From a virus: 31,288 nucleotides of DNA. Under the pieces are notes generated by a model. It was not told the DNA's origin, made no database searches, and saw nothing but the letters and a program-made list of their open reading frames with translations. This document shows, in pieces, positions 3,784 through 25,277 of this stretch. The stretch spans positions 1 through 31,288 of the IMG/VR virus record IMGVR_UViG_3300005515_000039; one strand, written 5' to 3'. Position 1 is the stretch's first letter, and each line of letters starts with the position of its first letter. Position numbers and translations under genes: made by a program.

Positions 3784-5001
3784 TTACGCCGCAAGCCTCG
3801 CTTCGAAGTAGGGGTCTACGTAAGGCACCATACCGGCGGACACCTTGGCTGCCATGTTGGCGTGGGGGGTGCTGCCAGGGTGGATTTCATCGTTCGGATA
3901 GGTCGTGTAGTCGCCTGCCTCTGCGATGATGTCATGGTACTTGTCCACTAGACCATCAGCTTTTGCCGCCAGCCACGCGTTGTAGTCATTGCGGACTGTG
4001 TTCTGGGCGCCCGTGAGGGTGCCTCTGGGGATGATCGAAGAGGCGTGGACTCGGAGGTAGCAACCATACGGCCCCACGATGGAGCGGGCATAGGCGGCCA
4101 AGTCCGTGAAGCGGGCCTTCATGGTCGCAAGGTCTGCCGACGCTGCGATGTCGTTAGTGCCGAGCTGGATGAAGATGTCCGTGACGTAGGGCCACAGGAG
4201 CTTCTGGACCGGCGCAACGGCAACCATCTGGTTCTGGATCTTATTGGCGTCGATGCCCTGCTTGTGCCACGGGAAGCAGTGCCCGTTGACCGACCTCATC
4301 GCACGGGCGAAGAAGCCCTGCGTGGAAGAGGTGTTCGTGTCGTCCTTGAAGTAGCCGATGCTGTCCAGGACGCCAATGACGCATGCCATGGGGACATAAG
4401 GGATACCCAGGACCATGGCTGGAGGGCAAGCTGGGCCTGCCGAGGTACCCGAGTTGTTTAGTACGCCACCACCTGCTCTGAGGAGCTGTGAGCCCCCTGT
4501 CGTTCGTAAGCCCTGGGAGCCAACGCCGTTGTTGGTCACTGAGGACATGGTGTCCGTCACCAGGGGGACCGTGCGGTAGAAGCCGCTGTAGTTGGTGGTG
4601 TCTGCGTCCCACTCCATACCCGCTACGGGGTCTGTGAGGATGATCTCGCCGGGGTTAGTTACCCCAGTGTTGCCCCCAGCGTAGAGTGACCTCACCGGGG
4701 TATTCACACCAGTCAGCTTCTCGGCTGCTCGTTGCCACGTCATCGTGTTGGCGGGGGACTGGATCTCAACGCCTGACCCCGGGGCCACATAGGCGTGAGC
4801 ATCCAAAAACCTGATGTTCTTGACCTTGGCGGGTCCGACTACGTGACCATTCCGGCCCTGCCCGTTGGTATTGCTACCTGCAAGGGCAACTGGGGGAGCG
4901 TTAGGGAAGTACGTATCGCCAGTCACGAGCTGGAGTCGGAAGGGGTCTGGATAGCCGCGTTTTGAGAGCAGCAGCCGCCTTGTTGCGCGCGCGACTGCCA
5001 T
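3784..5001 (-). CDS. SGNH/GDSL-type hydrolase, probable virion-associated esterase
   Basis: A 405-residue protein with SGNH hydrolase blocks: VLDSIG with nucleophile S214 (block I, with Leu where Gly of GDS is usual), LGTND with N283 (block III), and D371-E-I-H374 (block V). The family removes acyl groups from lipids or polysaccharides. Sited with the tail fibres, it probably deacetylates host exopolysaccharide or O-antigen during adsorption, but the substrate is not visible. The first ~200 residues carry no recognised domain and may attach it to the tail. Codons such as AGA, CTA, GTA and TCA are used more freely than in neighbouring genes, suggesting a different origin. It starts one base after the upstream stop. 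Confidence 0.75.
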   Translation of the reverse strand: MAVARATRRLLLSKRGYPDPFRLQLVTGDTYFPNAPPVALAGSNTNGQGRNGHVVGPAKVKNIRFLDAHAYVAPGSGVEIQSPANTMTWQRAAEKLTGVNTPVRSLYAGGNTGVTNPGEIILTDPVAGMEWDADTTNYSGFYRTVPLVTDTMSSVTNNGVGSQGLRTTGGSQLLRAGGGVLNNSGTSAGPACPPAMVLGIPYVPMACVIGVLDSIGYFKDDTNTSSTQGFFARAMRSVNGHCFPWHKQGIDANKIQNQMVAVAPVQKLLWPYVTDIFIQLGTNDIAASADLATMKARFTDLAAYARSIVGPYGCYLRVHASSIIPRGTLTGAQNTVRNDYNAWLAAKADGLVDKYHDIIAEAGDYTTYPNDEIHPGSTPHANMAAKVSAGMVPYVDPYFEARLAA

Positions 5002-5002
5002 T

Positions 5003-5776
5003 TTAGACGTCCACGCTATGCAGGGTGATCTTGTAAACTTCGCTGTTGGCCGCCGGCGTGTAGCCGCCGGCTGTCACTAGATAGGCAGAGATATCGGCGG
5101 TCACGAGCTTCATCTGCTTGTTGACGCCGGTAAAGTCGCAATAGAGCGTACCGCCGCCGACAAGGACCGGAGCGCCGAGATCGATGAAGCAAAGGAAGGG
5201 TCCGCGGTCCGTACCCGCCCAGGTGAACGCCGCATTATCGGCGATGGCTGATGGAGGTGCGGAGCTGTAGAGATAGAGCCGGAAGCTCGTCATCCCGGAT
5301 GGGATCGCCGCGATATCAACTTCCAGCTCGGCCCGGGTGATCAGGATCGATCCTCCCGACTTGCCGATCGCCGCGAAGTTCAGCACCCCGCCCCCCGTCT
5401 GCCCAACGACGTCGCCCGCCGTGTAGGCCGTCACGTTCGCTGGCCTGGTGAGTGTCACCGCGACATCATGCGCCGTCGATTTCTGGTCGACCGGTATGGC
5501 CGGCTGATCGGTCGCGATGTTGACGGCTGGGCTCTGTGCCACCGTTCTCACACCGAGCTGCGCAACCAAGCCGGTGCCGAGCGAAGCGGTGACGGCATCA
5601 ACCGAGGCTTTGACGGCATCAACCGAGGTCTTAAGCGCCTTTGTGCGCTCAAGCAGCGAATTCGCCGTTGGGTTTGCCGTCACCTCTCCGAGAAGCTTTG
5701 CGATCGCCGTCAAGGTTGCGACATCGATCGGGTCGCCATTGGCGTCGAGAACTGTAGCCTGATCCACTTGTGCCAT
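5003..5776 (-). CDS. Phage structural protein of the fibre region
   Basis: A 257-residue protein. Residues about 20-75 are helical with heptad-like repeats (the near-duplicate KTSVDAVKASVDAVTASLG), probably a trimeric bundle. The rest is a beta-rich module beginning TLTRPANVTAYTAGDVVG. That module, with later pieces like PSGMTSFRLYLYSSAPPSAIADN, recurs in many phage structural proteins of unknown role. It starts immediately after the stop of the second tail tube gene with no spacer, and it precedes the SGNH hydrolase. A fibre, adaptor or minor decoration protein is likely. Confidence 0.6.
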   Translation of the reverse strand: MAQVDQATVLDANGDPIDVATLTAIAKLLGEVTANPTANSLLERTKALKTSVDAVKASVDAVTASLGTGLVAQLGVRTVAQSPAVNIATDQPAIPVDQKSTAHDVAVTLTRPANVTAYTAGDVVGQTGGGVLNFAAIGKSGGSILITRAELEVDIAAIPSGMTSFRLYLYSSAPPSAIADNAAFTWAGTDRGPFLCFIDLGAPVLVGGGTLYCDFTGVNKQMKLVTADISAYLVTAGGYTPAANSEVYKITLHSVDV

Positions 5777-6796
5777 TTAAATCACCTGTCCGATGTACTG
5801 GGAGTTGCCGATGGAACTGAAATCGAGAGAAGGCGGCGCCGGAGGAGCCACAGGCGGGTTGATCCCGCCGAAGGTTCGCGTGATCGCCATCGTCGCGGTT
5901 GAGGTCGGATCGAGAATTGCTGTGAACGGAACTTCCATGACGACAGCCCGGCCGTTGCCCGGGCCGATCGGCGAGCCGTTTGTCAGCTTCACTTTGGGGA
6001 TGCTGATTTCGTAGGAATTGTTGACCGCATCGGTAAGCGTTGCTGCTATCCCGATGTCCGAGTGGTCGATGATCGCTTGATAGAGATCCGCGCTCTCGAA
6101 GACCGCCGTCAGGCTGCCCGTCACGTCGAACAGGCCCAGGCCGAAATCGTAGACCTCATATCGCCCGACAACGTCGACGGCGTAGAGGTTGTTGTTCACC
6201 CTGATGGAAAGCGACTGGAGCTTGGGTGTGGCTGCGAGGCCTGTTATCGAAAGAGACGCGACGTTCAACGCCGCATTGAATACTGGCGTCGTCGTGGCGT
6301 CGATATACGTCGATCCTGAGACTACTGTTGTTGCCGGATCGGGGCTTCCGACACCGAGAATCCCCCAATTTGCCGTGACGTTCTGTTTAGCGTTCAGCTG
6401 GAGATCGAGAGTGTTGATCCGGCACCCTAGGTAACGGGTGAACACATCAGTCACGCCCATTTCGAACCGCTTCTCAAAAGCCAGCGTCTTTACCTGGACG
6501 CTGTTCTTCAGAGCGGATCCCGACCAAGATCCACAAAGGAGGGCAGCGAACCAATCATCGAAGGTGAAAAAGGAAAGGAGCGTGTTGACGGGGCCGGTCA
6601 CCTGCCGTCCAACGTCCGTGACATCAGTCCGATTACGATCGTCCCGAACCTCGTCGGAGCTGATCGTCTGCTTATCCAGCGTCAGCCCCTCGCTGACGTA
6701 ACGGGCGGTCTGCCAAGACGGATTCGCGGGGATAACGCCCGGCGTCGTCTCTTTGACAAACGCGAGCTGCGTCTGTGAGCCGTGGGCTACAGTCAT
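5777..6796 (-). CDS. Second tail tube protein paralogue with C-terminal extension
   Basis: A 339-residue homologue of the tail tube protein at 18714-19646. By hand alignment 210 of the first 310 residues are identical without a gap, including long perfect blocks such as DLQLNAKQNVTANWG and GPGNGRAVVMEVPFTAI. It then continues for 29 extra residues with a PPVAPPAPP linker and an aromatic end. The start is placed at 6796, not the in-frame ATG at 6808, because it matches the paralogue and GGAG lies in the same place. The position among fibre genes suggests a specialised subunit rather than the bulk tube: a fibre collar, tail-surface adaptor or alternative tube. That role is inference. No frame damage is seen, so it is probably functional. 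Confidence 0.85.
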   Translation of the reverse strand: MTVAHGSQTQLAFVKETTPGVIPANPSWQTARYVSEGLTLDKQTISSDEVRDDRNRTDVTDVGRQVTGPVNTLLSFFTFDDWFAALLCGSWSGSALKNSVQVKTLAFEKRFEMGVTDVFTRYLGCRINTLDLQLNAKQNVTANWGILGVGSPDPATTVVSGSTYIDATTTPVFNAALNVASLSITGLAATPKLQSLSIRVNNNLYAVDVVGRYEVYDFGLGLFDVTGSLTAVFESADLYQAIIDHSDIGIAATLTDAVNNSYEISIPKVKLTNGSPIGPGNGRAVVMEVPFTAILDPTSTATMAITRTFGGINPPVAPPAPPSLDFSSIGNSQYIGQVI

Positions 6797-6823
6797 ATTA
6801 GGCTCCATCTATCGGGATTGCCC

Positions 6824-6872: not shown

Positions 6873-7439
6873 TCATGTAGTCGGCGCGGGCCATATCACG
6901 GCATCGTAGGCGGCCTGTGCCGCGTCGGCGTCCTCGGCCGATGCGATCGCCGCTTTACCGCCAAGGCGCGCGGATTCGATCTCGGCGCCGATCATCTGCC
7001 ACTGCGCATAGGCCGCGACTACGATCTGAGCCACTTCGGCGAGACTGTCGGCTGTAATTCCAACCTCTGCCGAAAGCATAGGGAAATCGCTCGGCTGCGG
7101 ATCCTCGGAAGCAACAAAGGCCTTCGCCTCTGCCGCCTTCGCTTGATAGGTCATGGCCTGCCCGGCTCCAGGCGTGATGTATTTCAGCCGCTCGAACTCC
7201 GCGGCGGTGTCGAGCGCGCTCCTCAGCTGCACTTTCAGCTCTTCTAGCGTCGGCTCCGGCGGCGTTGGCTCTTCCGGGTTTTCCGGACTTTCCGGCTGAT
7301 GGACCCCAAAGCCCCCGTCAATGCTCACGACAAGACCGTTGATCATGCCGTCGATCGCCGCCGCATATTGCTCGTTGGTGATCTCAAGAGCGCCGGGAAA
7401 CGGGTCTGTGGCGACCTTTCCATTGGCTGCGTACGGCAT
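6873..7439 (-). CDS. Tail-fibre-associated protein, possible fibre assembly chaperone
   Basis: A 188-residue protein. The N-terminal 50 residues carry a motif common in tail-fibre assembly proteins (PYAANGKVATDPFPGALEIT, then a 'Y..AI.GM..G' helix). A Pro/Glu-rich linker (SPENPEEPTPPEPT) follows, and then a long helical domain containing ERLKYITPGAGQAMTYQAK, a sequence style common to DUF4376-like or fibre assembly proteins. Its ATG overlaps the stop of the upstream fibre gene (TAATG at 7437-7441), consistent with a dedicated chaperone or cap of that fibre. Exact role not established. Confidence 0.6.
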   Translation of the reverse strand: MPYAANGKVATDPFPGALEITNEQYAAAIDGMINGLVVSIDGGFGVHQPESPENPEEPTPPEPTLEELKVQLRSALDTAAEFERLKYITPGAGQAMTYQAKAAEAKAFVASEDPQPSDFPMLSAEVGITADSLAEVAQIVVAAYAQWQMIGAEIESARLGGKAAIASAEDADAAQAAYDAVIWPAPTT

Positions 7440-8299
7440 TATGCGATCCTCATATAGGCTTTGACGCTTAAGTTTTTCATGCGGGTTTCCGTGGCGGTAC
7501 GCGCGACAAGCGCCGCATTGAAACCTATTGTTCTCATGGCGATGTCAGCGCCGCTCACAGCGACTGGCGTAGCTTGTCCGTTGGCACCGCTATCAAACAT
7601 TGCCCCGCCATAATTCGTCACCATTTCGCCGCCGCCGCCGGCGTTGGTGCGGCGAAGATCAAACGTGCCGCTGATGTTTTGAACGGCGTCGTTCTGAGTG
7701 TTGTTGGGGGATGTAGACGGGCGCTCGATTCGGCTTTCCGTATTCAACAAGTGGATCGTTTGCCCAAGCATGGGTGACGAGGCATAGTTGATCACGGCGG
7801 TAGCCGCTACCAGCGGCGCCGATCCGGACACGCTCTCAGTCGTCAGTTTTCCGTTGTTGAAGGCGCCGACCCCGGTTAGGCCCGACGTCAACTCGATCCA
7901 GATTGTGTCGGACGTCGTGGAAGGAGGAATGTCGACACCGGTAAGCCCGGTGTTCAACATAATCACTTCGCCGATGGCACGCGATCGCCATTTCAACACC
8001 GGATTGGTAAGAGCGGCGGCTATTGCGTCGGCGTTTGTCCCGTCGCTATAGGTGATTTTTCCAGTCGCAATATCCAGCGTTAGAACGAGATTATCGTCCG
8101 AGCCATCGTAGAAATAGAGCTTCCGCTGACCGGCGGTGGCGGTCGAGACCCAAAACGATCCGTCGACTGCATAGGCCGGACGCGAGGAGCCTGAATGGCC
8201 ACTCACCACAGCCTTGAAATTGTCGTCGATCCGCGCTGCCATCGTTGTTGGCGACGCGGGGCCGACTGTCGGGACGCTGAAGATTGCCGCCTGACTCAT
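7439..8299 (-). CDS. Tail fibre protein
   Basis: A 286-residue protein. The N-terminus (MSQAAIFSVPTVGPASPTTM) leads into SRPAYAVDGSFWVSTATAGQRKLYFYDGSDD, the short repeat-type module seen at the virion-proximal end of many fibres. The rest is beta-rich, Gly/Ser/Thr-rich and aperiodic, as expected for a trimeric receptor-binding tip. The start at 8299 overlaps the stop of the tip protein by ATGA. No reverse transcriptase or variable repeat is nearby, so there is no sign of targeted diversification. Confidence 0.75.
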   Translation of the reverse strand: MSQAAIFSVPTVGPASPTTMAARIDDNFKAVVSGHSGSSRPAYAVDGSFWVSTATAGQRKLYFYDGSDDNLVLTLDIATGKITYSDGTNADAIAAALTNPVLKWRSRAIGEVIMLNTGLTGVDIPPSTTSDTIWIELTSGLTGVGAFNNGKLTTESVSGSAPLVAATAVINYASSPMLGQTIHLLNTESRIERPSTSPNNTQNDAVQNISGTFDLRRTNAGGGGEMVTNYGGAMFDSGANGQATPVAVSGADIAMRTIGFNAALVARTATETRMKNLSVKAYMRIA

Positions 8300-11200
8300 T
8301 GGACGTATCCATATCCTTTTGCCACATAGTCGAAAGTTCGCGCTACCGGCGCACCCGACGCATTTCGGAAGATGATTGTGAAGCCGCCCGACGTCTTGCC
8401 GGTGATCTGGTAGTAGTCGCCGGTCTGCATGTTTTGGGCTGCTATGGAGACGCCACTGAGCACGTAGTACGCCGGCGAAAAGCCGACCGTGAGGCCGCTT
8501 GTCGACACGACCAGGTCGTTCTCGGCAATCACCCGATCCGGCATATCGACCGTGACCGAAAGCGTTTCCACCACGGGTGTGACGTCGAATTGCTGCGAAA
8601 GCAGTCGCGCGCGGAATCGGTAGGCGCGCGCCGCAACGTCTGACGTCACCAGCTCCGCCCAGTCGCTCCATGCCGGGCTCCCCGAAGGGTCGTCCACCGT
8701 GGATGAGATCTCAACCCGCACATTCCACAGTGCATCCGAGGCCATTCCAAAGAATTCAGGAATGTCGAACCAGTCGCCGCGCTTAAATAGGTCAAGACTG
8801 GCGACGAGGCCGTAGGCCGACACTTCGGCGCTCACTCTGGATGTATGCACCTCGCCGAGGTCGATGATGTCTGCGAAATCGTAAACTCCCTCGGTCAGGA
8901 AGCCGCTGATCGACAAAAAATAGTCTTCGACAGAGAACCAGTCGGCCAACTCGAACAAGTTGGTGGCCGTATCGAGCTGCAGAACGCCACCGAGAGCAAC
9001 AACGCCGCTCTTGGCGCCAAGGAAGTCCGGCGCATCAGCCATCGCCTCGACGGCGTTGAAGGCGGTCAGCGGATTGACGGTGCTGACGATCAATGCCGCA
9101 TTTACCGATTGAAGACCGGCGAAATTGACCGCTTTAATCAAGTAAGTGCCGACCATTGCCGCGACCTGCGTCTGAGAACCGATGACGTTGGTTCGCAGGG
9201 TCGATGCAGTCTGCCATGTCACCCCGCTGATCGAGGGAGAAAAGCGGATCTCGCAATGTGAAAACGCCTGGTCGGCCTGCAGCGTCCATTGCAGCAGGGC
9301 GATATCGCCGCTGATCCCGATCCTGAAATCCTGCACATCGGCGGGGTTCGAGGCGAGGATGCTGCAGATAAACGACCCGATCAGGAAACCAGAAAGCTCC
9401 CCGCTTGCGAACACAGCACGAATCCTCACATCGTAGACACCAGTCGCCAGATTGACGATGCGAGCCTGAGGCGCGCTCACACTTGGTATCGTGATCCAGA
9501 ATTCGTCGCCGGTGGCTCGATACTGCACGATATAGGACGCCCCTGCTCCAGCATTCGGCGCCTGCCATGCTAGGTCGACCGCCGATGTCGCCGGCGACGT
9601 CGTCCAGATCGTCTCGACATAGGATAGACCTGTCGGAGCCGAGGCTCGGTAGTCCGGAATGGGCGCGATGCCCGTCTGGAATGGCGGTATCGTACCGGTA
9701 TCGGCCTGCATGATGCCGGGGGCATCATCCACCAGCTCCAGCCGCGCGGAGAGATCCTGCCGTGCCGTGATGCTCTTCACGCGCAGGACGACGCTTTCGA
9801 ACCCCTTTTCTCCGAAGAGAGCGAGATCACCAGGCGCCGGCAAGTCACCAGCATCGGAAAACTCGAAGGTGTCGAACTCGCCGTCGGCCCCAACGATCGT
9901 CCTGACGATCGACGAGCCGTCGGCGGCACGGAACCGCATGGAATAGGTCTTGCCGGACTGCATCGTCAGCAGATCGTCGAGGACAACGCCCTCTGGCGAG
10001 GAGATGACCGTTCGCACCCTGGCCGTCCCGGCGCCCCACATGACGACGTCATGATTGACGCGCACGCGATCGCCGCGCGTGCACACCAGATGCTCGAAGT
10101 CGGTATCAAGCGAATAGGTCTCCCGCTGCAGCCGCAGCTGCGCGATGTGATAGCGACCATGCTTCCAGATCAGGTTCGGATCAGTGACGCCTGAGAATTC
10201 GATGCCTTCCAATTTTGTGGCATTGCTTTTGTTGTAGCCGTCGTCATAGACAACCCGCTCGTCGTTCAGATAGCTGTTGTCTCGATTGATGAATTTGACC
10301 CGGAAGGCATGCGGGAGATCCGCGAAAGCCCGAACCGACGAGAAGTTGGCAGAGTTACGCGGCGAGAAATGCTGCACGATGGGCGAATCTGGCACATCCC
10401 AGACAACTCCCCACCGACCATCGCGATAAGATACGGCTGCCCGGCCGGCCGCGGCTATTTCTGTCAGCCGATCATAGACCGATTTTTGTTCACTCGCGAC
10501 TAGGTCGAACGTAAAACCCCTCGCCAAACAATATGCGCGCCACGAATGGATGCTGTCGAAATCAATTTGTGCGTCCGGCACCGGCCGCGCATTGCCGTTG
10601 CCCCTGAGGACTTGCATGAAATGGTCTGCAGGGTTCCTGGTATCCTGTGCGTGCAGCCAGGCCTCGCCGTCCCAGATCGGGATTTTAGGGGTGGCGAGGC
10701 AGTTGAAGGTGTTGACCGTACCATTCAGCTGTCCAGTTGCCTTGATCCGCATGGCGATCAGCGTCAAGGGTTTCGGGAAGTTGATGACCGGCTCGTTCCG
10801 TCGCCCGCGAACCGCGGTCCAGTAGACCGTCTCTGAGACGTTGTCCTTGCCTACGTAGTCAGGTGTCGATTTGCGGGTGCGGACATCATACTTCCCGCGC
10901 GCTACGCCATTGGCGAGTGTCCGGCGCACCGCCTGCGGTGAATTCGAAGTCAGGTCGATCGTGCCAAGCGAGAGCCATGTGCTGCTCGTCGAGAGTTTGT
11001 ACTGAACCTCCACCCAGACCGTATAATAGACGCGATTGCCTTTCGACGTGTATCGATACGTTCCGTTCGGCGCGCTCACATCAACCGAGATCTCATCGAT
11101 GTCGTCCGCGGTCGTCCGCTCGACCCAGCCTGTCGGGCCGTCGAGGAGAACGGAAACATCCTCCTGATAGACTGGCTTTGTGTAGAGCGTCAGCGGTGTA

Positions 11201-11928
11201 GCGGTGTGGTCCTCAATGATCTCGATGTTCAGATTTTCGAACTTCGATATCGGCGTCTCACCAATCTTCAAATCGGAAACGGCGATCGGCCCGTAGCCGA
11301 CAACGAACAGCATCCGCAAATATTGATCATCGCCGACAAGTTCGGTGTAAGCTCCGGCCGCATACGGTGGTGAGATGCGGTGCACCCCGAAGATTTCGGG
11401 TATCGCCCCATATTGAGCTGCAGTGTTTTGCGCGCCTCCGATCGAATAGAGCGTTTTGGCAGACGGCAGAGAATCCGGCTTGGCCACCGGAAAAAGCGCG
11501 TTGATGATCAAAGAGCCGGCGATGGAAATGCCAGCTCCGATCAGGCCGGTCGCCACACTCGCTGCTGCACCCGTAAGGCCGAGGAGCGTGCCGGCGATCC
11601 AAGGCGCTGCCACCGCTGCGAAGATGGCGACGACCAGGCCAGCAATCATGCGTAGAGCACCCTTGCCGGGCACCTTGACGATGACAACGGAGACGCCTGG
11701 CTTCACGCGCACGCGCGGCCAATTCCGCTGCTCGATCACATGGCCACCGAGGGAGATATGCAGCCGCACCGGATCGAGCCCGCAGCATGAGATAATCTCA
11801 TCGATCGACAGACCGGCCGGCACCACGACATGCTCGCGGTGCTGGCGCAGCGGCGATCGACGGATGTAGACATCGACCCTTTCATCTGGCGCGATAATCT
11901 GGGCATCCGCGTTGCGGACGGTCAGCAT
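8296..11928 (-). CDS. Tail tip host-specificity protein, I/J-type fusion
   Basis: A 1210-residue central tail tip protein, the counterpart of lambda gpJ. The first ~150 residues look like the separate lambda gpI: a beta-grasp-like start (LSIDEIISCCGLDPVRLHISLGG) and a very hydrophobic Gly/Ala region (about residues 92-148). The J-like hub follows, starting near AKTLYSIGGAQNTAAQYGAIPEIFG. A fibronectin type III-like domain lies at about residues 755-845 and beta-rich segments fill the C-terminus, probably carrying receptor contacts. It starts seven bases before the stop of the NlpC/P60 gene and overlaps the fibre gene by ATGA. Confidence 0.9.
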   Translation of the reverse strand: MLTVRNADAQIIAPDERVDVYIRRSPLRQHREHVVVPAGLSIDEIISCCGLDPVRLHISLGGHVIEQRNWPRVRVKPGVSVVIVKVPGKGALRMIAGLVVAIFAAVAAPWIAGTLLGLTGAAASVATGLIGAGISIAGSLIINALFPVAKPDSLPSAKTLYSIGGAQNTAAQYGAIPEIFGVHRISPPYAAGAYTELVGDDQYLRMLFVVGYGPIAVSDLKIGETPISKFENLNIEIIEDHTATPLTLYTKPVYQEDVSVLLDGPTGWVERTTADDIDEISVDVSAPNGTYRYTSKGNRVYYTVWVEVQYKLSTSSTWLSLGTIDLTSNSPQAVRRTLANGVARGKYDVRTRKSTPDYVGKDNVSETVYWTAVRGRRNEPVINFPKPLTLIAMRIKATGQLNGTVNTFNCLATPKIPIWDGEAWLHAQDTRNPADHFMQVLRGNGNARPVPDAQIDFDSIHSWRAYCLARGFTFDLVASEQKSVYDRLTEIAAAGRAAVSYRDGRWGVVWDVPDSPIVQHFSPRNSANFSSVRAFADLPHAFRVKFINRDNSYLNDERVVYDDGYNKSNATKLEGIEFSGVTDPNLIWKHGRYHIAQLRLQRETYSLDTDFEHLVCTRGDRVRVNHDVVMWGAGTARVRTVISSPEGVVLDDLLTMQSGKTYSMRFRAADGSSIVRTIVGADGEFDTFEFSDAGDLPAPGDLALFGEKGFESVVLRVKSITARQDLSARLELVDDAPGIMQADTGTIPPFQTGIAPIPDYRASAPTGLSYVETIWTTSPATSAVDLAWQAPNAGAGASYIVQYRATGDEFWITIPSVSAPQARIVNLATGVYDVRIRAVFASGELSGFLIGSFICSILASNPADVQDFRIGISGDIALLQWTLQADQAFSHCEIRFSPSISGVTWQTASTLRTNVIGSQTQVAAMVGTYLIKAVNFAGLQSVNAALIVSTVNPLTAFNAVEAMADAPDFLGAKSGVVALGGVLQLDTATNLFELADWFSVEDYFLSISGFLTEGVYDFADIIDLGEVHTSRVSAEVSAYGLVASLDLFKRGDWFDIPEFFGMASDALWNVRVEISSTVDDPSGSPAWSDWAELVTSDVAARAYRFRARLLSQQFDVTPVVETLSVTVDMPDRVIAENDLVVSTSGLTVGFSPAYYVLSGVSIAAQNMQTGDYYQITGKTSGGFTIIFRNASGAPVARTFDYVAKGYGYVQ

Positions 11929-17769: not shown

Positions 17770-18129
17770 CTATTCCTTGTCGGTCTTCAACCGCTCGGCC
17801 TCGATCTCAAGGAAAACTCGATCGAGAGCGTACATGGTCTGGAGAAATCGCCCGAAGTCGTTTCCGGTGATGCCGTGATCCCGGGCATAGGTGCTGAGGG
17901 CCACGTAGGAGATGGGCGTTTGGCCGCCGAAGGCGCCGTAGAACCGGTCGTAACGGAGGGCGTCGAAGGCTCTAAAATAGAGATCGTGCCACGGACGCGG
18001 CTTGAAGCCGCGATCCGATGTTGTCTGAAGCCATGCCTCTTCTGGATTTTCGTCCGCAATCTCGCGAAGCCATTCCGATATTTCTGCCGCCTCCTCGCGT
18101 CCTAGTCGGTGACGGAAGGCGGCAATGAG
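17770..18129 (-). CDS. Tail assembly chaperone T extension, made by -1 frameshift
   Basis: This frame has no convincing start of its own. It continues the G protein after a -1 slip at GGGAAAC (18129-18135). The first codon after the slip is CTC at 18129, giving LIAAFRHRLG onward. The extension is 119 residues, so the GT product would be 134 + 119 = 253 residues. The T part is helical and contains WHDLYFRAFDALRYDRFYGAFGGQTPISY, as expected for chaperones that bind tape measure and tube subunits. The stop is TAG at 17770-17772, 49 bases before the tape measure start. The lambda G/GT precedent is established; use of this site is inferred from sequence. Confidence 0.85.
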   Translation of the reverse strand, partial: LIAAFRHRLGREEAAEISEWLREIADENPEEAWLQTTSDRGFKPRPWHDLYFRAFDALRYDRFYGAFGGQTPISYVALSTYARDHGITGNDFGRFLQTMYALDRVFLEIEAERLKTDKE

Positions 18130-18530
18130 TTTCCCTCTTCGGCCGCGGTGTATTCGACTTCGATCTGGCTGATCTTTGCCGCGCACCATCCGATTGCCTG
18201 AACCACGACGCGGTATTCCGGATCGCTCAGCGTCGCCAGCGCCAGTTCCGGCGTATAATCCTCATCCAGCCCCTCCCATCCGTGAAGGATGTGTTCGGCG
18301 TACAGCGCGCCGAGCTCGGCGTTGATGACTTCGGTGGGAACTGGCGAGTCTCCATAGATCTTTCCGACGCGCTGGAACATCAGACCGCGAGCCGTCTCGT
18401 ATTCCGGCATAGTCAAAGCAGAAACGTTGAAACGTACCCCTTCCCAGTCGGGAAAGGGTATCCAATCACCCTTCTTCTCTCGTTCCAGGTTTGCCTTCAG
18501 GCTTGTCAGCTTCAGTTTCCGCGATGTCAT
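18102..18530 (-). CDS. Tail assembly chaperone G
   Basis: A 142-residue protein in the usual place between tail tube and tape measure. It has a basic N-terminus (TSRKLKLTSLKANLEREKKG), an aromatic segment (WIPFPDWEGVRFNVSALTMPEYE) and a helical acidic C-terminus. It is made in full when ribosomes do not slip at GGGAAAC. The short form (G) and the frameshift form (GT) together organise tube subunits on the tape measure before polymerisation. The start at 18530 lies 65 bases inside the upstream gene, which points to coupled translation. Confidence 0.85.
   Translation of the reverse strand: MTSRKLKLTSLKANLEREKKGDWIPFPDWEGVRFNVSALTMPEYETARGLMFQRVGKIYGDSPVPTEVINAELGALYAEHILHGWEGLDEDYTPELALATLSDPEYRVVVQAIGWCAAKISQIEVEYTAAEEGNSLPPSVTD
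18129..18135 (-). other. Programmed -1 ribosomal frameshift site G GGA AAC
   Basis: On the minus strand the G frame reads GAG GGA AAC, giving a canonical X XXY YYZ heptamer G GGA AAC at codons 133-134 of G. Slipping back one base pairs with GGG AAA and enters the T frame, which is open to 17770. The G frame stops only nine codons later. Lambda uses the closely related GGGAAAG at the same place between its G and T genes. Confidence 0.85.
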
Positions 18531-18714
18531 TGGTGCTGCTTTCTTCCTCGGCTACAGGCGCGTCTTGGGTGAGCTTCTTGGCGCGCATGAGTTTGATGAA
18601 ATCTGCCGGCATGGGCTCGCTTTCCACGCCGGCGGTGAAGTGGGTTTTGACGTCGTTCGGAAAGCCGGTGAACGACACTGCAGGAATGAAGGTGCCTTTG
18701 TACTTGCCAGCCAT
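18466..18714 (-). CDS. Small protein between tail tube and chaperone G
   Basis: An 82-residue protein. The N-terminal half (AGKYKGTFIPAVSFTGFPNDVKTHF) looks beta-rich and structured. The second half is acidic and disordered (EEESSTNDIAETEADKPEGK). The ATG at 18714 shares a base with the tail tube stop (TGATG) and is preferred over a GTG one codon upstream. It overlaps gene G by 65 bases. Position and coupling indicate a small tail protein or tube cofactor. No family assigned. Confidence 0.65.
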   Translation of the reverse strand: MAGKYKGTFIPAVSFTGFPNDVKTHFTAGVESEPMPADFIKLMRAKKLTQDAPVAEEESSTNDIAETEADKPEGKPGTREEG

Positions 18715-19646
18715 CACGCAACCGCCCTTGTTACGACCAGAGTTGCTGCGGCGGTTGTGTCGATGATGGCGGTGAAAGGCACCTCCATTACAACGGCGCG
18801 ACCGTTTCCGGGACCGACGGGCGAGCCGTTTGTCAGCTTCAGCTTCGGAACAGAGAACGTGTACTTATTGCCGGTGCTGGCGCCGATCGTGAAGGTCAGC
18901 GACAGATCGCTGTGATTGATGACCGCGTCGAACAGATCCTTGTTCTCGAAGATCGCGGTCATGGACCCCGAGACATCGAAAAGGCCGAAGCCGAAGTCAT
19001 AGGTCTCGTATTGGCCAATGGCATCAACGGCGTAGACGTTGTTGTTGATGCGCAGCGAGAGCGCTTGCAACTTCGGACTTGCCGTTACGCCGGCGATAAC
19101 GAGCGAACCGACATTGAGGGCGGCATTCAGGACCGGCGTGGTGGTCGGATCGGTGTAGGTCGCCCCGGTGACAATCGCAGTATCCGGATTTGGACTGCCA
19201 ATGCCCATCAGGCCCCAATTGGCGGTAACGTTCTGCTTCGCATTCAACTGCAGGTCCAGCGTGTTCACCCGGCAGCCGCGGTACCGGGCATAGACGTCGG
19301 TCGCGCCCAGCTCGAATGTTTTTTCGAACGCCAGCGTCTTCACGACATTGCCGTTTTTCAGGACGTTGGTCGCCCAGTCGTTCGCGAGCAAGGCGCTGAG
19401 CCAATCGTCGAACGTGCCGTATGACAACAGCGTGTTGATCGGGCCAGTGACCTGGCGCCCGACGTCGGTCACGTCGCTGCGATTCCTGTCCGGCCGAACT
19501 TCGTCAGACGACACCGTCTGCTTGTCGAGCGTGAGGCCTTCGGTCACGTAACGCGCTATTTTCCAGGTCGGCGTCGCCGGGATTGTGCCCGGTACCGCCT
19601 CCATCACGTACGCAAGGCGTGTCTGCGAGCCGTGAGCTACAGCCAT
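18714..19646 (-). CDS. Major tail tube protein
   Basis: A 310-residue tail tube subunit starting MAVAHGSQTRLAYVME. It includes the GLTLDKQTVSSDEVRPDRN segment common to this tube family (phage_tail_3-like, 'T..SEEIR.DR...D...G...G'). It follows the terminator-like gene and precedes the small 18466 gene, G/GT and the tape measure, which is the standard place. Its ATG at 19646 is fixed by GGAG upstream. A close paralogue lies at 5777-6796. The protein should polymerise into stacked hexameric rings around the tape measure. The 96-base leader before it is one of the few real gaps in this operon and contains two hairpins. Confidence 0.9.
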   Translation of the reverse strand: MAVAHGSQTRLAYVMEAVPGTIPATPTWKIARYVTEGLTLDKQTVSSDEVRPDRNRSDVTDVGRQVTGPINTLLSYGTFDDWLSALLANDWATNVLKNGNVVKTLAFEKTFELGATDVYARYRGCRVNTLDLQLNAKQNVTANWGLMGIGSPNPDTAIVTGATYTDPTTTPVLNAALNVGSLVIAGVTASPKLQALSLRINNNVYAVDAIGQYETYDFGFGLFDVSGSMTAIFENKDLFDAVINHSDLSLTFTIGASTGNKYTFSVPKLKLTNGSPVGPGNGRAVVMEVPFTAIIDTTAAATLVVTRAVA

Positions 19647-19674
19647 GATAAGGGCTCCATCAGTGGGAAGGGCG

Positions 19675-19714
19675 CGTCGTCACGACGGGCCAGTGCGCGC
19701 TTGCCGAAGGCGCG
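19675..19714 (-). promoter_or_regulatory. Two-hairpin leader of the major tail tube gene
   Basis: Read on the minus strand: CGCG-C-CTT-cggc-AAG-CGCG (19714-19696), then CGTCG-tga-CGACG (19687-19675), about 30 bases before the ATG. Both elements recur in front of the second tube gene at 6824-6862. The high demand for tube subunits makes an RNA-stability or translation-enhancing role possible; this is inference. Confidence 0.6.
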
Positions 19715-19742
19715 TGTTCGGCGTCCGGACGGGCCGGAAGTG

Positions 19743-20159
19743 CTATGATCCAGTGGTGTCGCGCCGATCGAAGCCGATCGTCAGCGTCATCGCGAAGAAG
19801 TTGGGAAAGTCCCTGCCCGGCTCGCCGCTGCCGATCGACATGCGCTGAAAGTTCATCGTGTCGACTGGATGCTCGCGGAACAGGTTCGAAAGACGCTTTG
19901 CGATCGCCCTCGCCTCACGCGATCCGGTACCGTCCGGAACCATGACGTGGAAATAAGCAGCGCCATCCTCGACCCACTCATTCTGTCCCGGCGCGCCAAA
20001 GGTGTCCTGCTCGAGCAGATCTCCGACGATCTCGACATAGACGAACGCCGTCTGGGAATCTGGATCGCTGACCTTGTCGTTCTCGTAGATCACGACCGTC
20101 TCCGACCAGGAGTCGAAGAGCACCTCGCTGATCGCGTCGAAAGCTTCCGGACTTGCCAT
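19743..20159 (-). CDS. Tail terminator-like protein
   Basis: A 138-residue protein just upstream of the tail tube, the usual site of the tail terminator (lambda gpU, DUF4128-like). Visible features are an N-terminal helix (AFDAISEVLFDSWSE), alternating beta strands with a conserved-looking FVYVEIVGD segment, then an 'EARAIAKRLSNLF' helix and a C-terminal strand FFAMTLTIGFDRR. It would cap the tube and join it to the head. The ATG at 20159 follows the upstream stop with no spacer. Confidence 0.7.
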   Translation of the reverse strand: MASPEAFDAISEVLFDSWSETVVIYENDKVSDPDSQTAFVYVEIVGDLLEQDTFGAPGQNEWVEDGAAYFHVMVPDGTGSREARAIAKRLSNLFREHPVDTMNFQRMSIGSGEPGRDFPNFFAMTLTIGFDRRDTTGS

Positions 20160-21849: not shown

Positions 21850-22572
21850 TTATTCCTGCTGGGCCTTCGGCTTGAGGGCGTCGACATAATCGTCCTTGGT
21901 CCTCAGGCCAGTCAGGTCGACTTTCTTCAACTCGGCATAGGCTTCGAGGTCACCCTTGTTCATGGTCTTGAGCTCGGCCTCGCTCAGTTCCTTTGGCTGC
22001 GAAGTAGGAAGCGGATCGCCGAACTGATTGGTGGCCTTGTTCTCGCCCGCCACGTTGGTGCCTCCCTGGCTCGCTGCATCCTGCTGCTGGGCCGCGGCAT
22101 CGGCCTGTATTTGCTGCTGCTGGACAGCGGCGGCTGCGGACGGCGGCGTTGCCTGGCCTGGCGCGGAAAGCGGCTGCTCGAAGACGCCGGAGTTCGGATC
22201 GACGGCGGTGATCGCCTGCGCGCCTTCGAATTCCCGCAGCATCTGAGACTTGGCTTCCGAAATGAGGACCGCATGGACCATATTACCGGAGAACGGCGTG
22301 CCGCTGCGCGCGATGATCGCCTTGAGATCCTCATCGGAGGCAGCGCTGAGACGCTTGTCGAGAGCGTCGATGATGCGTCGGTTCAGCTCTTCGTCGGCGG
22401 GAGTGGCGGAATTGCTCGTTACGGCCTCGATGAAACCGGCATCCTTCAGGCCATGAAACGTCGTGTCCTGAACCGTGTAGCCGGCCGGCGGGAAGTCGTC
22501 ACCAGCCTTGAGATGCAAGAAATTTGCCCCATCGAACGCGAATGGGAAGCTCTGCTTCACTGTGCCTTTCAT
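21850..22572 (-). CDS. Head-region protein with C-terminal HeH/SAP-like motif
   Basis: A 240-residue protein. The N-terminus resembles small head-region proteins (KGDTV-like 'F.LKAGDDFPPAGYTVQD'). The middle is a low-complexity Ala/Gln linker with QQQQ and QQQ runs. The end, LSEAELKTMNKGDLEAYAELK followed by GLRTKDDYVDALK, looks like a HeH/LEM or SAP-type helix-extension-helix, a small fold that often binds nucleic acid and occurs in phage head-region proteins. It has an AAGGA ribosome site. The role is unknown; capsid-DNA or assembly contact is a guess. Confidence 0.65.
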   Translation of the reverse strand: MKGTVKQSFPFAFDGANFLHLKAGDDFPPAGYTVQDTTFHGLKDAGFIEAVTSNSATPADEELNRRIIDALDKRLSAASDEDLKAIIARSGTPFSGNMVHAVLISEAKSQMLREFEGAQAITAVDPNSGVFEQPLSAPGQATPPSAAAAVQQQQIQADAAAQQQDAASQGGTNVAGENKATNQFGDPLPTSQPKELSEAELKTMNKGDLEAYAELKKVDLTGLRTKDDYVDALKPKAQQE

Positions 22573-22606
22573 GGCGGAAGTCCTTCTGAATTTGTGGTGG
22601 AGGAAA

Positions 22607-22633
22607 CCGACGCGCCAGCGCGTCGGCGTTTTT
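22607..22633. other. Intergenic hairpin between two head genes
   Basis: CCGACGCG at 22607-22614 and CGCGTCGG at 22619-22626 make an eight-pair stem with a four-base loop. A T run (22629-22633) follows on the plus strand and a short TTT on the minus strand. In the late (minus) transcript it sits between the decoration-like and HeH genes and may lower downstream expression. Confidence 0.5.
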
Positions 22634-22661
22634 CATCCGCCCTCGGTGCCCCCGACGTTGA

Positions 22662-23087
22662 TTAGGCCGGCGGGTTTGCCGTCGGCCGGAGATTCTGCTT
22701 GCCGAGGATCCAGACCGCCGCAAGGAAGACGTTGCCGGTATTGCCGGTCGGGGTGATCGTCGCACGGACATACTGCTTGCCGCCCGTGTAGCCGACTTTG
22801 CGGATACCGTTGTCGGCAGCGAAAGTGAATCCCGCGAGCGTCAGGCTCCCGTTCATCTGATCGGCCGGTACCGCCGTTGCGTCGGAAAGGTTCGCGGCAT
22901 CGCCGTGCTCCATTGTCACTGCAAATGTCGCATCAGCGTCGGCGATGTCTCCGAGGATGATCGCGAGCGCCACGGCTTCCGCGCCGAGACGATTGAGGAT
23001 CTGCGTGACGAGAGCGGTGTTGTCCGTGGTCGCGGCGGCCGGCGAAATCGCCCGCTTGAAGTCGAGATTGTTGATCAGGTCCCGCAT
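22662..23087 (-). CDS. Putative capsid decoration or head protein
   Basis: A 141-residue protein beginning MRDLINNLDFKRAISP. This start is preferred to an ATG four codons upstream because GGAGG lies five bases ahead. The rest (TDNTALVTQILNRLGAEA, ADADATFAVTMEHGDAANLSD, KQYVRATITPTGNTGN) matches a widespread beta-rich phage protein family found directly downstream of major capsid genes. A decoration or capsid-stabilising role is likely from position but not demonstrated for the family as I know it. Confidence 0.65.
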   Translation of the reverse strand: MRDLINNLDFKRAISPAAATTDNTALVTQILNRLGAEAVALAIILGDIADADATFAVTMEHGDAANLSDATAVPADQMNGSLTLAGFTFAADNGIRKVGYTGGKQYVRATITPTGNTGNVFLAAVWILGKQNLRPTANPPA

Positions 23088-23141
23088 GGGAGCCTCCATG
23101 AAGACCGGCGCGCGGCGCGCTGACCGGATGGTGGTTGGGAA

Positions 23142-23163
23142 CGGCGCGGCCGGAACCGCGCCG
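23142..23163 (-). other. Hairpin after the major capsid gene
   Basis: CGGCGCGG at 23142-23149 and CCGCGCCG at 23156-23163 form an eight-pair GC stem with a six-base loop, ten bases after the capsid stop on the minus strand. There is no T tract. It could protect the capsid message from 3' decay or reduce read-through. Confidence 0.5.
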
Positions 23164-23173
23164 AGCGAAGCGG

Positions 23174-24553
23174 TTAGGCCGAAACCACCTGCAGGGCGTA
23201 GGCCTCGAAGTCGACGACGTCGCCGCCGACACGCTGGCGCGTGTAGAACTCGACGAATGGCTTCGAGGAATACGGATCGCGCAGGGTGCGGATGCCGAGG
23301 CGGTCGACGACGGTGTAACCGGCACGGAAGTCGCCGAATGCTACCGGCAGCGCGCCGGCGCCTACAGACGGCATGTCATCGGCGCGCCGGATGTTGTAGC
23401 CAAGCAGGACAGAAGGCTTGCCAGCTTCGAGGCCCGGGCGCCAGATATACTGGTTCTGGTTGTCCTTGAAGAGCATAACAGCGCCGACGGTGCCGCGCTT
23501 CATCAGCCAGTTCGCGTTGGCTAGGTACTTGTCCTTCAGCGAGAAGGTCATCGTAACCAAGCCATCCGGCGTCAGGGCCGTTGCGTTGCCGGACGCCACC
23601 TGGGCGATGGTGCCACGCACACCGGCCGAACCGGCCGGATAGGTCAAGATGCCACGCGGCTTCTTAATGCCGTTGCCCGAGACGAACGCCAAGGCGCGCA
23701 TGCGGGCGAACTTTTCCGAAACCTTCCGCTCGAGCCATGCTTCGATATCGATGCCGGCATCTTCGAGCAGCTGCTGCGTTGCCTTCGGCTTCGCATAGAT
23801 CTCGAAAACCGGAATACGCTGGACGCCCACCTGCGGGGTGGATGTTTCGGGACGCGCGTCCGTCTCACCTACCCAGCCGGCGCCGGCTTCGTCCGTGTCG
23901 ACCGCGATTTCGATCGCGTCGGTCGTGATGGTCTCGTGATAGGCGAGCTCATCGAGAGGCGACGTTTCGTAAATCTTGGTGATGATCCGGGAGCTGGTCG
24001 CCGTCGGCGTCAGGTAGCCGCCGTCCGGGTCAGAGCCGACCAGCATGGCCTTCTGCTCTTCGAGGGAGAGCATGTTCACCTCGCGGCGAAGGGACATTTT
24101 GAAGGCGTCTTGGTAGGCTTTGTACTCTTCGATGTTGGTGTCTTCGGGCTTCAGGCTGGTGTTGAGCTTCAGCTCGCCACGACGTGACATCGCAGTGCGC
24201 TTAAACTCGGTCGCTTCCAGGATCAGCTTGCCCTGGTCGCCGCCGTTGCCGCCGCCTGGACGGTTCAGCTTCTTCTCGATTTCGAGGATCGCCTTGGCCT
24301 CGGTTTCGGCCTTTGCGAGAATCTCGGCGACCTTCTTCTCGATCGCCTCGTGCTTGGCTTCGACGCCGCGGGTCAGGGCCTCGAGATCAGACTTGAGCTG
24401 GGTGCCGTCGCCGGCAGACTTACCGGCCCTTTCGGCCAGTTCGCGGACTTCCTTCAGATCCTTTTCCATGCTGGTCTGAAGCGACTTATAGTCCTCACCG
24501 ACGCGCTTCACCTCGCGCTGGACATCGTCCAGCACGTCCTTGATATCGGGCAT
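23174..24553 (-). CDS. Major capsid protein, HK97 fold
   Basis: A 459-residue HK97-type capsid protein. Residues 1-100 are almost pure charged coiled coil, the delta/scaffolding domain normally removed by the prohead protease. A Gly-rich linker (GGGNGGDQG, about 100-108) and then the capsid fold follow. Recognisable family segments are GGYLTPTATSSRI, AGWVGETDARPE and PVFEIYAKPKATQQLLEDA-type, then LLGYNI and IRTLRDPYSSKPFVEFYTRQRVGGDV at the C-terminus. GGGAGG lies just upstream of the ATG. The protease gene is immediately upstream, as in HK97. Confidence 0.95.
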   Translation of the reverse strand: MPDIKDVLDDVQREVKRVGEDYKSLQTSMEKDLKEVRELAERAGKSAGDGTQLKSDLEALTRGVEAKHEAIEKKVAEILAKAETEAKAILEIEKKLNRPGGGNGGDQGKLILEATEFKRTAMSRRGELKLNTSLKPEDTNIEEYKAYQDAFKMSLRREVNMLSLEEQKAMLVGSDPDGGYLTPTATSSRIITKIYETSPLDELAYHETITTDAIEIAVDTDEAGAGWVGETDARPETSTPQVGVQRIPVFEIYAKPKATQQLLEDAGIDIEAWLERKVSEKFARMRALAFVSGNGIKKPRGILTYPAGSAGVRGTIAQVASGNATALTPDGLVTMTFSLKDKYLANANWLMKRGTVGAVMLFKDNQNQYIWRPGLEAGKPSVLLGYNIRRADDMPSVGAGALPVAFGDFRAGYTVVDRLGIRTLRDPYSSKPFVEFYTRQRVGGDVVDFEAYALQVVSA

Positions 24554-24578
24554 AGCGCCCTCCCTTATGAGATGTTGG

Positions 24579-25277
24579 TCAACCTGCCCGGAGCTTCTTC
24601 AGCTCTTCGAGCAGTTCCACCGCCGCCTTCTCATCACGAGAGGACGTCGTGGGTTGGCCCTCAGCCTCACGCTGAAGGTGCTTCTTCACGATTGCGACGG
24701 CCTTCACGGCATCGTCACGTGACAGAATGGTTTTCAAATCGCGCTCCAGATCGCGCGGATTGAGAAGATCGAGCGCCTTGACCTGGCCGATCAACGCCTT
24801 GTCGTTGGATCCCCATGTCACGATGCTGACCTCCTTGAGGTCGATCTCGTGCAGGACGCGATAAGGGTCCGTGGGCTTGGTGCCCATGGTGTATTTCGTG
24901 GCGCGATAGCCGATCGAGAGGCCGTCTAGTTCGCCGGCTTTCAGACCTTCATAGATCATCTGGCCGCGATCGGTATTGAGTGCAAACAGCTCGCCCGAAA
25001 CCTTCAGGCCCTTGCTGTTTTCCTCCATCGAGGTCCACTTGCCGATCGGCAGCATGTCTTCGACCGGGCCGTAAAAGCCGCCGTGCTGCAGCAGCATCTT
25101 CGGCAGCTTGCTCTTGCCTTCCCACTCGCGCAGGGTCGCCTTGAAAGCGCCCTTCTCGATTACGTCGCCGTGGGAATCGAGGTTACCGAAAACCGCGCCG
25201 TAGCCGGAAAACGTGCCTTCCTTCGCCGAACCGCCCTCGAACTTGACCTCGATAAGCCCGGTTTCAAGATGATCCAT
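24579..25277 (-). CDS. HK97-type prohead protease
   Basis: A 232-residue serine protease of the herpesvirus/HK97 type that matures the procapsid. Family landmarks are FSGYGAVFGNLDSHGDVIEKGAF near the N-terminus, H65 in MLLQHGG and S121 in DGLSIGYRA, the expected catalytic pair. The C-terminal ~70 residues are charged and helical and may act as a scaffold-binding tail. The ATG at 25277 follows the portal stop by two bases. Confidence 0.92.
   Translation of the reverse strand: MDHLETGLIEVKFEGGSAKEGTFSGYGAVFGNLDSHGDVIEKGAFKATLREWEGKSKLPKMLLQHGGFYGPVEDMLPIGKWTSMEENSKGLKVSGELFALNTDRGQMIYEGLKAGELDGLSIGYRATKYTMGTKPTDPYRVLHEIDLKEVSIVTWGSNDKALIGQVKALDLLNPRDLERDLKTILSRDDAVKAVAIVKKHLQREAEGQPTTSSRDEKAAVELLEELKKLRAG

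Follow-up and report, generated by a model that had tools for sequence, protein, structure and literature searches.

A tail tube is usually seen as being encoded by one gene, with fused Ig-type domains as its only decoration. Contractile systems also have tube paralogues dedicated to the tip, such as the initiator rings gp48/gp54 of T4 and Afp5/Pvc5, which have a fixed place between the tube and the baseplate hub. Siphophage tube subunits may carry C-terminal extensions that project outside the tube, and in SPP1 the plain and C-terminally extended subunits, gp17.1 and gp17.1*, are present at 3:1 in one tail (PMC8718954). The extended SPP1 form arises by a frameshift from a single gene, and its FN3 domain is dispensable for infection. 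The tubes of lambda (gpV), T5 (pb6) and YSD1 also bear a C-terminal Ig-like addition that projects outward (PMC8718954), in each case as a folded domain of the sole tube protein. Phages K1-5 and G7C and KP32-type Klebsiella phages attach receptor-binding proteins to the virion in a modular fashion through short conserved peptides (PMC6872550), which the second receptor-binding protein carries N-terminally.

Here we analysed a 31,288-nucleotide virus record (IMG/VR IMGVR_UViG_3300005515_000039; "the window" denotes this whole stretch), which encodes exactly two tail tubes, tube1 in the canonical position and tube2 as a separate gene about 12-13 kb away. As in SPP1, a plain and an extended tube form are encoded in one genome. 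Unlike in SPP1, the extended form is a separate, diverged gene with a 30-residue Pro-rich arm and a docking-type tag, and we found neither a frameshifted form of a single tube gene nor a C-terminal Ig/FN3 domain. Tube2 shares a C-terminal addition with the lambda, T5 and YSD1 tubes, but no second domain was found in it, and it coexists in the genome with a plain tube1. The peptide-docked systems are comparable in that a short conserved peptide is linked to variable receptor-binding genes, and in that the third gene here likewise starts with a shared basic peptide; the tag itself, however, is C-terminal on diverse carriers rather than N-terminal on a receptor-binding protein. In the literature we found no siphophage described as having two genes for its tail tube, and as far as we searched only the phages treated here have a second, tagged copy. 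Acinetobacter phage Ab105-2phi is listed with two tube places. Judged from sequence, what appears to be new is the use of a separate tube gene as carrier, and a tag that tubes, the head closure protein and small Ig-like proteins have in common.

An intact second tube gene in the tail-fibre cluster

An earlier note on this DNA had described a complete second tube gene, free of frame damage, within the tail-fibre cluster, and both points were confirmed. The tube2 frame contained no internal stops, and its product matched PF18906 (Pfam E-value 7.6e-43, compared to 5.3e-47 for tube1) with 147.5 bits against a curated cut-off of 27, the profile covering the whole tube domain, as well as phrog_290 (E 7.9e-72), to which tube1 also belongs. 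The same PF18906 family includes a tail tube whose structure has been solved, PDB 8xan_B (annotated as major tail structural protein; E 1.2e-57). By BLASTP, tube2 and tube1 shared 210 of 307 residues (68%, E 8e-169); the 210 identities and the lack of gaps reported earlier were exact, while the aligned length was 307 rather than 310. The 29 residues by which tube2 exceeds tube1 (339 versus 310 aa) are due to a C-terminal extension. An AlphaFold2 monomer of tube2, predicted with seven relatives, was poor (pLDDT 46), and no claims about the fold are drawn from it. A GGAG Shine-Dalgarno sequence lies immediately 5' of the tube2 start, and an in-frame ATG at 6808 falls within this Shine-Dalgarno region.

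Genes for a J-type protein, a tail fibre and a small protein precede tube2, and the gene at 5003-5776 and a GDSL-type esterase gene follow it (Table 1). The fibre gene start overlaps the J stop, while the start at 8671 proposed by the ORF caller falls inside J. Tube1 is flanked by a gene in the tail-terminator position and by two frames in the chaperone position; the latter share 88 nt, read in different frames, an arrangement like that of lambda G/GT with its programmed frameshifting. A scan for promoters and terminators around tube2 yielded nothing.

Both tube genes are preceded by a leader of about 65 nt with two small helices, ending in AUGGAGCC, and within the window this element precedes only these two genes. 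One pair of helix 1 occurs as C-G, A-U and U-A. The element was also present at L058 2000-2066, L149 1972-2038 and L010 9931-10000. Over 66 nt, the tube2 leader of the window was 84% identical to that of tube2 in the relative G923 and 71% identical to the window's own tube1 leader. The element is absent from Rfam, no Rfam match was found anywhere in the window, and the leader folding energies were not exceptional.

Table 1. Features of the two tube loci in the window.
Feature	Position	Strand	Description
Tube2, second tail-tube protein	6796-5777	-	CDS of 339 aa plus stop; PF18906 over residues 6-290
Tube2 5' leader, two small helices	6797-6863	-	same element before tube1
Tube2-specific C-terminal extension, residues 310-339	5780-5869	-	GGINPPVAPPAPP, linker plus tag
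Tag SLDFSSIGNSQYIGQVI	5780-5830	-	common to unrelated carriers in other Rhizobium phages
GGACAGGTG	5783-5791	-	nucleotide-invariant at 13 tag loci; Shine-Dalgarno-like site for next gene
Partner protein, next gene after tube2	5003-5776	-	conserved head, helical stretch, C-terminal beta jelly-roll-like domain
GDSL-type esterase/hydrolase	3784-5001	-	Pfam/PHROG matches; basic N-terminal peptide MAVARATRRLLLSKRG
Small gene between fibre and tube2	6873-7439	-	phrog_32459, family without known function; 72% in G923
Tail fibre-like protein	7439-8299	-	PHROG match; likely start MSQAAIF at 8299
J-type central tail fibre / tip protein	8296-11928	-	phrog_31, 7e-133
Tube1, canonical tail tube protein	18714-19646	-	310 aa; PF18906, phrog_290
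Tube1 5' leader	19647-19716	-	paralogous to tube2 leader
Gene in tail-terminator position	19743-20159	-	assigned by position and an earlier reading from sequence alone
Two chaperone-position frames, overlapping	18102-18530, 17770-18189	-	assigned by position

Recurrence of the tube pair and similarity of tube2 to the resident tube

The earlier note had proposed a search for tube pairs in related rhizobial phages, and the pair did recur. Including the window, we found double tubes in five records representing four lineages of phages and prophages of the Rhizobium group, one record being 99% identical to the window. This record, G001 (IMG/VR 2935901341), has the pair in the same order, with tube2 99% and tube1 100% identical to those of the window. 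The corresponding values were 87% and 94% in G002 (IMG/VR 2509276021) and 77% and 86% in G007 (Rhizobiales isolate AFS095166); the fifth record, G923, is described below. The tube2 frame was intact and the tag present in all five. The tag was absent from nine single-tube viral records (G003, G004, G005, G925-G927 and G929-G931) even with two mismatches allowed, and neither the tag nor the 5003-5776 gene was found in 20 kb of the single-tube prophages G231, G478, G455 and G532. Relatives lacking tube2 therefore lacked the tag too, as well as the 5003-5776 gene where 10-20 kb were examined. Tube2 and the beginning of 5003-5776 persist in G002 and G007, where the esterase gene has given way to others; the flanks turn over faster than tube2. 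The dN/dS ratios of tube2 (0.09-0.12) and tube1 (0.087-0.11) indicate that both are under equal purifying selection, and tube2 is thus not a decaying duplicate.

G923 combines tip genes like those of the window (J 79%, DUF1833 80%, the 6873-7439 gene 72%) with a different shaft, its tube1 being 49% identical and its tape measure up to 44% identical in pieces. Its tube2 was identical to its own tube1 at 257 of 307 positions (84%), compared to 52% identity with tube2 of the window. G007, in which J is equally diverged (79%), resembles the window in shaft type, and its tube2 is 77% identical. In a phylogenetic tree, support for the G923 pair as a clade was 99/96; window-type tube2s made up a separate clade (100/100) beside window-type tube1. 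The arms of the window and G923 tube2s nevertheless both start with GGI and end in PSLDFSS..NSQYIGQVI. The simplest reading of these sequences would be a single tagged-tube locus whose body was rebuilt from the sequence of the resident tube as shaft and tip came together; the alternative is two separate duplications. Under either origin the tube2 body stays close to tube1, which is what joint assembly in one tail would predict.

We also compared substitutions between the window and G923 pairs. Convergent tube1-to-tube2 changes numbered six, with 6-7 in controls, and thus showed no excess. Differences between tube1 and tube2 dipped at residues 34-75, with nominal p values of 0.002 and 0.03 for a range that was chosen after alignment. 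Variable positions shared by the two pairs were considered as a signal and rejected, as they reflect ordinary rate variation.

A C-terminal tag linked to the head of the next gene

The extension in the window comprises 30 residues, FGGINPPVAPPAPP-SLDFSSIGNSQYIGQVI, and consists of a Pro-rich linker followed by SLDFSxxxNSQYIGQVI; it contains no Pfam domain and no Ig/FN3 domain. It was present in all tube2s and absent from tube1 and every single-copy tube inspected, which end at about ...ITRAVA-stop after 302-313 aa (TRAVA-stop in the tube1 ORF itself). In a tblastn search of 50,697 phage records, the extension matched Rhizobium phages only, the matching segment being the C-terminal end of a 47-aa protein encoded by N4-like (Schitoviridae) phages; a consensus query additionally matched myophage PPF1. 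The gene following the tag is a 5003-5776 homologue in the N4-like phages, with up to 48% identity, and likewise in PPF1.

A search with the pattern NSQ[YF]xGQVx-stop, which asks nothing about neighbouring genes, returned nine stretches in 2.9 million viral contigs, G001 and G002 among them; of the 397 genomes of the order that were searched, it matched one, G007. In all nine contigs the tag was the C-terminus of an ORF, and a gene bearing versions of the head MAxVxxIxV[KL][DN]AxGxxxxV[AP]T lay 0-1 nt downstream or overlapped. Carriers of the tag include window-type tube2 and the second tube of G923, and also the head closure protein Hc1 (PF05521, phrog_25) in L144 and L057, which in L144 occupies its canonical place between Ad1 and Neck1. 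Small proteins carry the tag in L056, in L060 (with a weak cadherin match) and in L143, where the gene follows Mu-like baseplate genes. Small Ig-like carriers were found in L142, directly after the tape-measure and other contractile-type tail genes, and in PPF1, after baseplate genes. In L142 and L143 the cassette follows an Ig-like carrier instead of a tube, yet its products are 69% (5003-5776) and 74% (esterase) identical to those of the window. The proteins behind the head differ between tagged contigs, which links the tag to the head rather than to the distal domain. On this sequence evidence, the tag is a mobile module found on unrelated carriers.

Several further observations concern these loci. 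The tagged Hc1 proteins of L144 (4869-5318) and L057 also match the first 100 positions of phrog_10356, an 852-position profile, which perhaps points to head closure being naturally fused with a large decoration. PPF1 (KJ746502), an isolated temperate Rhizobium phage, has the cassette of tag carrier, 5003-5776 homologue and esterase at 22184-24651, where PPF1_30-32 are annotated merely as hypothetical proteins. A candidate second tag/head pair occurs in L064-L068, L071 and L077, just upstream of a 5003-5776-like gene; the small proteins end in STAGQPTGLLLxLTKAS (or GTPIGLLLxLTR), and the next genes start with MADNxxVTPGxGxxIAADDVGGV.

Across the 13 tag loci, codons for LDFS and NSQY varied synonymously (pN/pS 0.22 and 0.07), and Ser codons within them switched between the AGY and TCN classes. 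The conservation of NSQ[YF]xGQV is partly imposed, because the search pattern demanded it for most of the 13 rows; LDFS was not demanded by a second pattern, nor was the choice of GGA, CAG and GTG codons. Retention of LDFS and NSQY despite synonymous change and Ser class switches indicates that the peptide itself is selected. GGACAGGTG, by contrast, was invariant to the nucleotide, indicating that the last codons are selected also as DNA. It resembles a ribosome-binding site for the following gene, and a role of the tube2 3' end in translational coupling is likely as well. A search with the head pattern identified a divergent tag in L151/L159. Among the divergent versions, PSLNFGLSANSGYVAIIPL precedes MSIQVKDATG in L151 and PSLDFSVASNSMYLALV precedes MTQITVKDAS in L072, both lacking the GQV end.

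In the window, the head of the 5003-5776 protein reads MAQVxxxTVLDANGDPxDVATLTA; it is predicted to be followed by helices and a confident beta jelly-roll-like domain. When the tag and this protein were fused by in-silico read-through of the TAA, AlphaFold scored the C-domain above 90 and the tag low, in blocks of 50-62. The jelly-roll-like domain occurs widely in phage contigs, where other N-termini precede it. The module is nevertheless rare, a close 5003-5776 homologue occurring in one of 395 genomes of the family. The predicted domain aligned to the trimeric cement proteins of Pam1, GP4 and KHP40 with Z values of 7.7, 7.6 and 7.3, which lie within background for beta sandwiches, and Foldseek/VIA gave middling scores against many beta-sandwich coats. 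We found no sequence relationship to these cement proteins, and the 5003-5776 gene differs from theirs in its placement in the fibre cluster. These model-based matches, and those to tail fibres of Agrobacterium phage 7-7-1, should be taken as only suggestive.

The third gene has a shared basic start, MAxxxRxxRRxL..., in most of these phages and is variable thereafter; its products include a GDSL esterase and proteins of 772, 492 and 433 aa. A conserved start followed by variation is the usual behaviour of receptor-binding proteins. Together with the replacement of the esterase by other genes in relatives, and its 74% identity in L142/L143, this pattern suggests that the 3784-5001 product is a probable variable receptor-binding or depolymerising protein. 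Basic starts MAVARATRRLLL, MALTNRKRRILM, MAINNRLRRILQ and MAIRGQARRVIG were seen across phage types, the basic start occurring in the window gene, L004, L019, L058, L142, L143 and L053-L055.

Tube2 as a possible mounting point for host recognition

On balance, we think that tube2 is probably a paralogue of the tail tube, retained as a mounting ring through which a host-recognition module is plugged into the tail, because its tag is common to unrelated structural proteins and a fibre-like gene always comes next. The tube-fold body of tube2 would assemble with tube1 in the tail, either scattered or as a ring close to the tip. Its Pro-rich arm at the C-terminus would extend outward from the tube wall and display SLDFSxxxNSQYIGQV, on which the conserved N-terminal head of the 5003-5776 protein may dock. 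This protein would in turn hold the product of the variable third gene, here the GDSL-type esterase, probably a surface-binding or surface-degrading protein. The earlier suggestion of a specialised ring, for example for fibre attachment, is supported by the transferable, tube2-only tag in front of a fibre-like gene, and becomes more specific. Its companion statement, that tube2 must coexist with the normal tube, gains indirect support from the similarity of the tube2 body to the resident tube1.

Other explanations account for parts of these data. Tube2 could be a tip initiator or collar whose own shape matters, with the tag incidental; its location among tip genes and the tip-dedicated paralogues of contractile systems speak for such a ring, but the body follows the resident tube1 in G923 instead of diverging toward a new interface, the tube pairs share no convergent changes, and the tag also occurs on carriers that are not tubes, making this unlikely. 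Somewhat more doubtful still is that the extension simply arose when the tube gene was joined to a segment for translation coupling, with the next gene's ribosome-binding site as what is conserved. Although the invariance of GGACAGGTG at 13 of 13 loci fits this idea, LDFS and NSQY upstream of it are conserved as peptide, the divergent tags do without the GQV end, and the retention of a whole tube gene would be left unexplained.

Covalent fusion of tube2 to the 5003-5776 protein by stop-codon read-through is suggested by the in-frame stop-ATG after the tag in the window (TAA then ATG), G001, G002, G007, L056, L057 and L144. The relative frame is +1 in L060, L142, L143 and the N4-like phages, however, and G923 has a TAATG overlap; such variation argues against a conserved fusion, the next gene has its own ribosome-binding-like site, and we consider read-through very unlikely. 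An alternative tube, which the earlier note had also considered and which would replace tube1 in some particles as a tail variant, fits the full-length, intact fold of tube2, but tube1 is present in every case and equally constrained, and the tag cassette would go unexplained; we give it hardly any more weight than the least probable reading, a recent non-functional duplication. The earlier note had taken regular decay or absence of the copy in relatives as the sign of such a duplication. Despite the 68% identity between the copies, synonymous divergence between the window's two tubes is saturated (dS 5.2, dN 0.25), selection is equal across lineages, and none of the double-tube records in the clade has a damaged tube2, so that the data contradict it.

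Beyond this locus, we tentatively propose, at slightly less than even confidence, that Rhizobium phages of all tail types share a plug-and-socket system, in which a C-terminal SLxFSxxxNSxY tag that can be welded onto almost any virion ring or surface protein mounts a common adaptor-plus-receptor-binding cassette. A tagged tube may then be re-converted to the resident sequence when the shaft changes, which would preserve assembly. If the mounting-ring reading is true, a second tube gene serving as a mounting point for host recognition would amount to a novel mode of tail decoration. The tag would act as a portable handle, which could explain the movement of a receptor-binding cassette among phages with sipho-, myo- and podophage tails. 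A more general question also becomes testable, namely whether tube paralogues co-assemble and how their compatibility is maintained.
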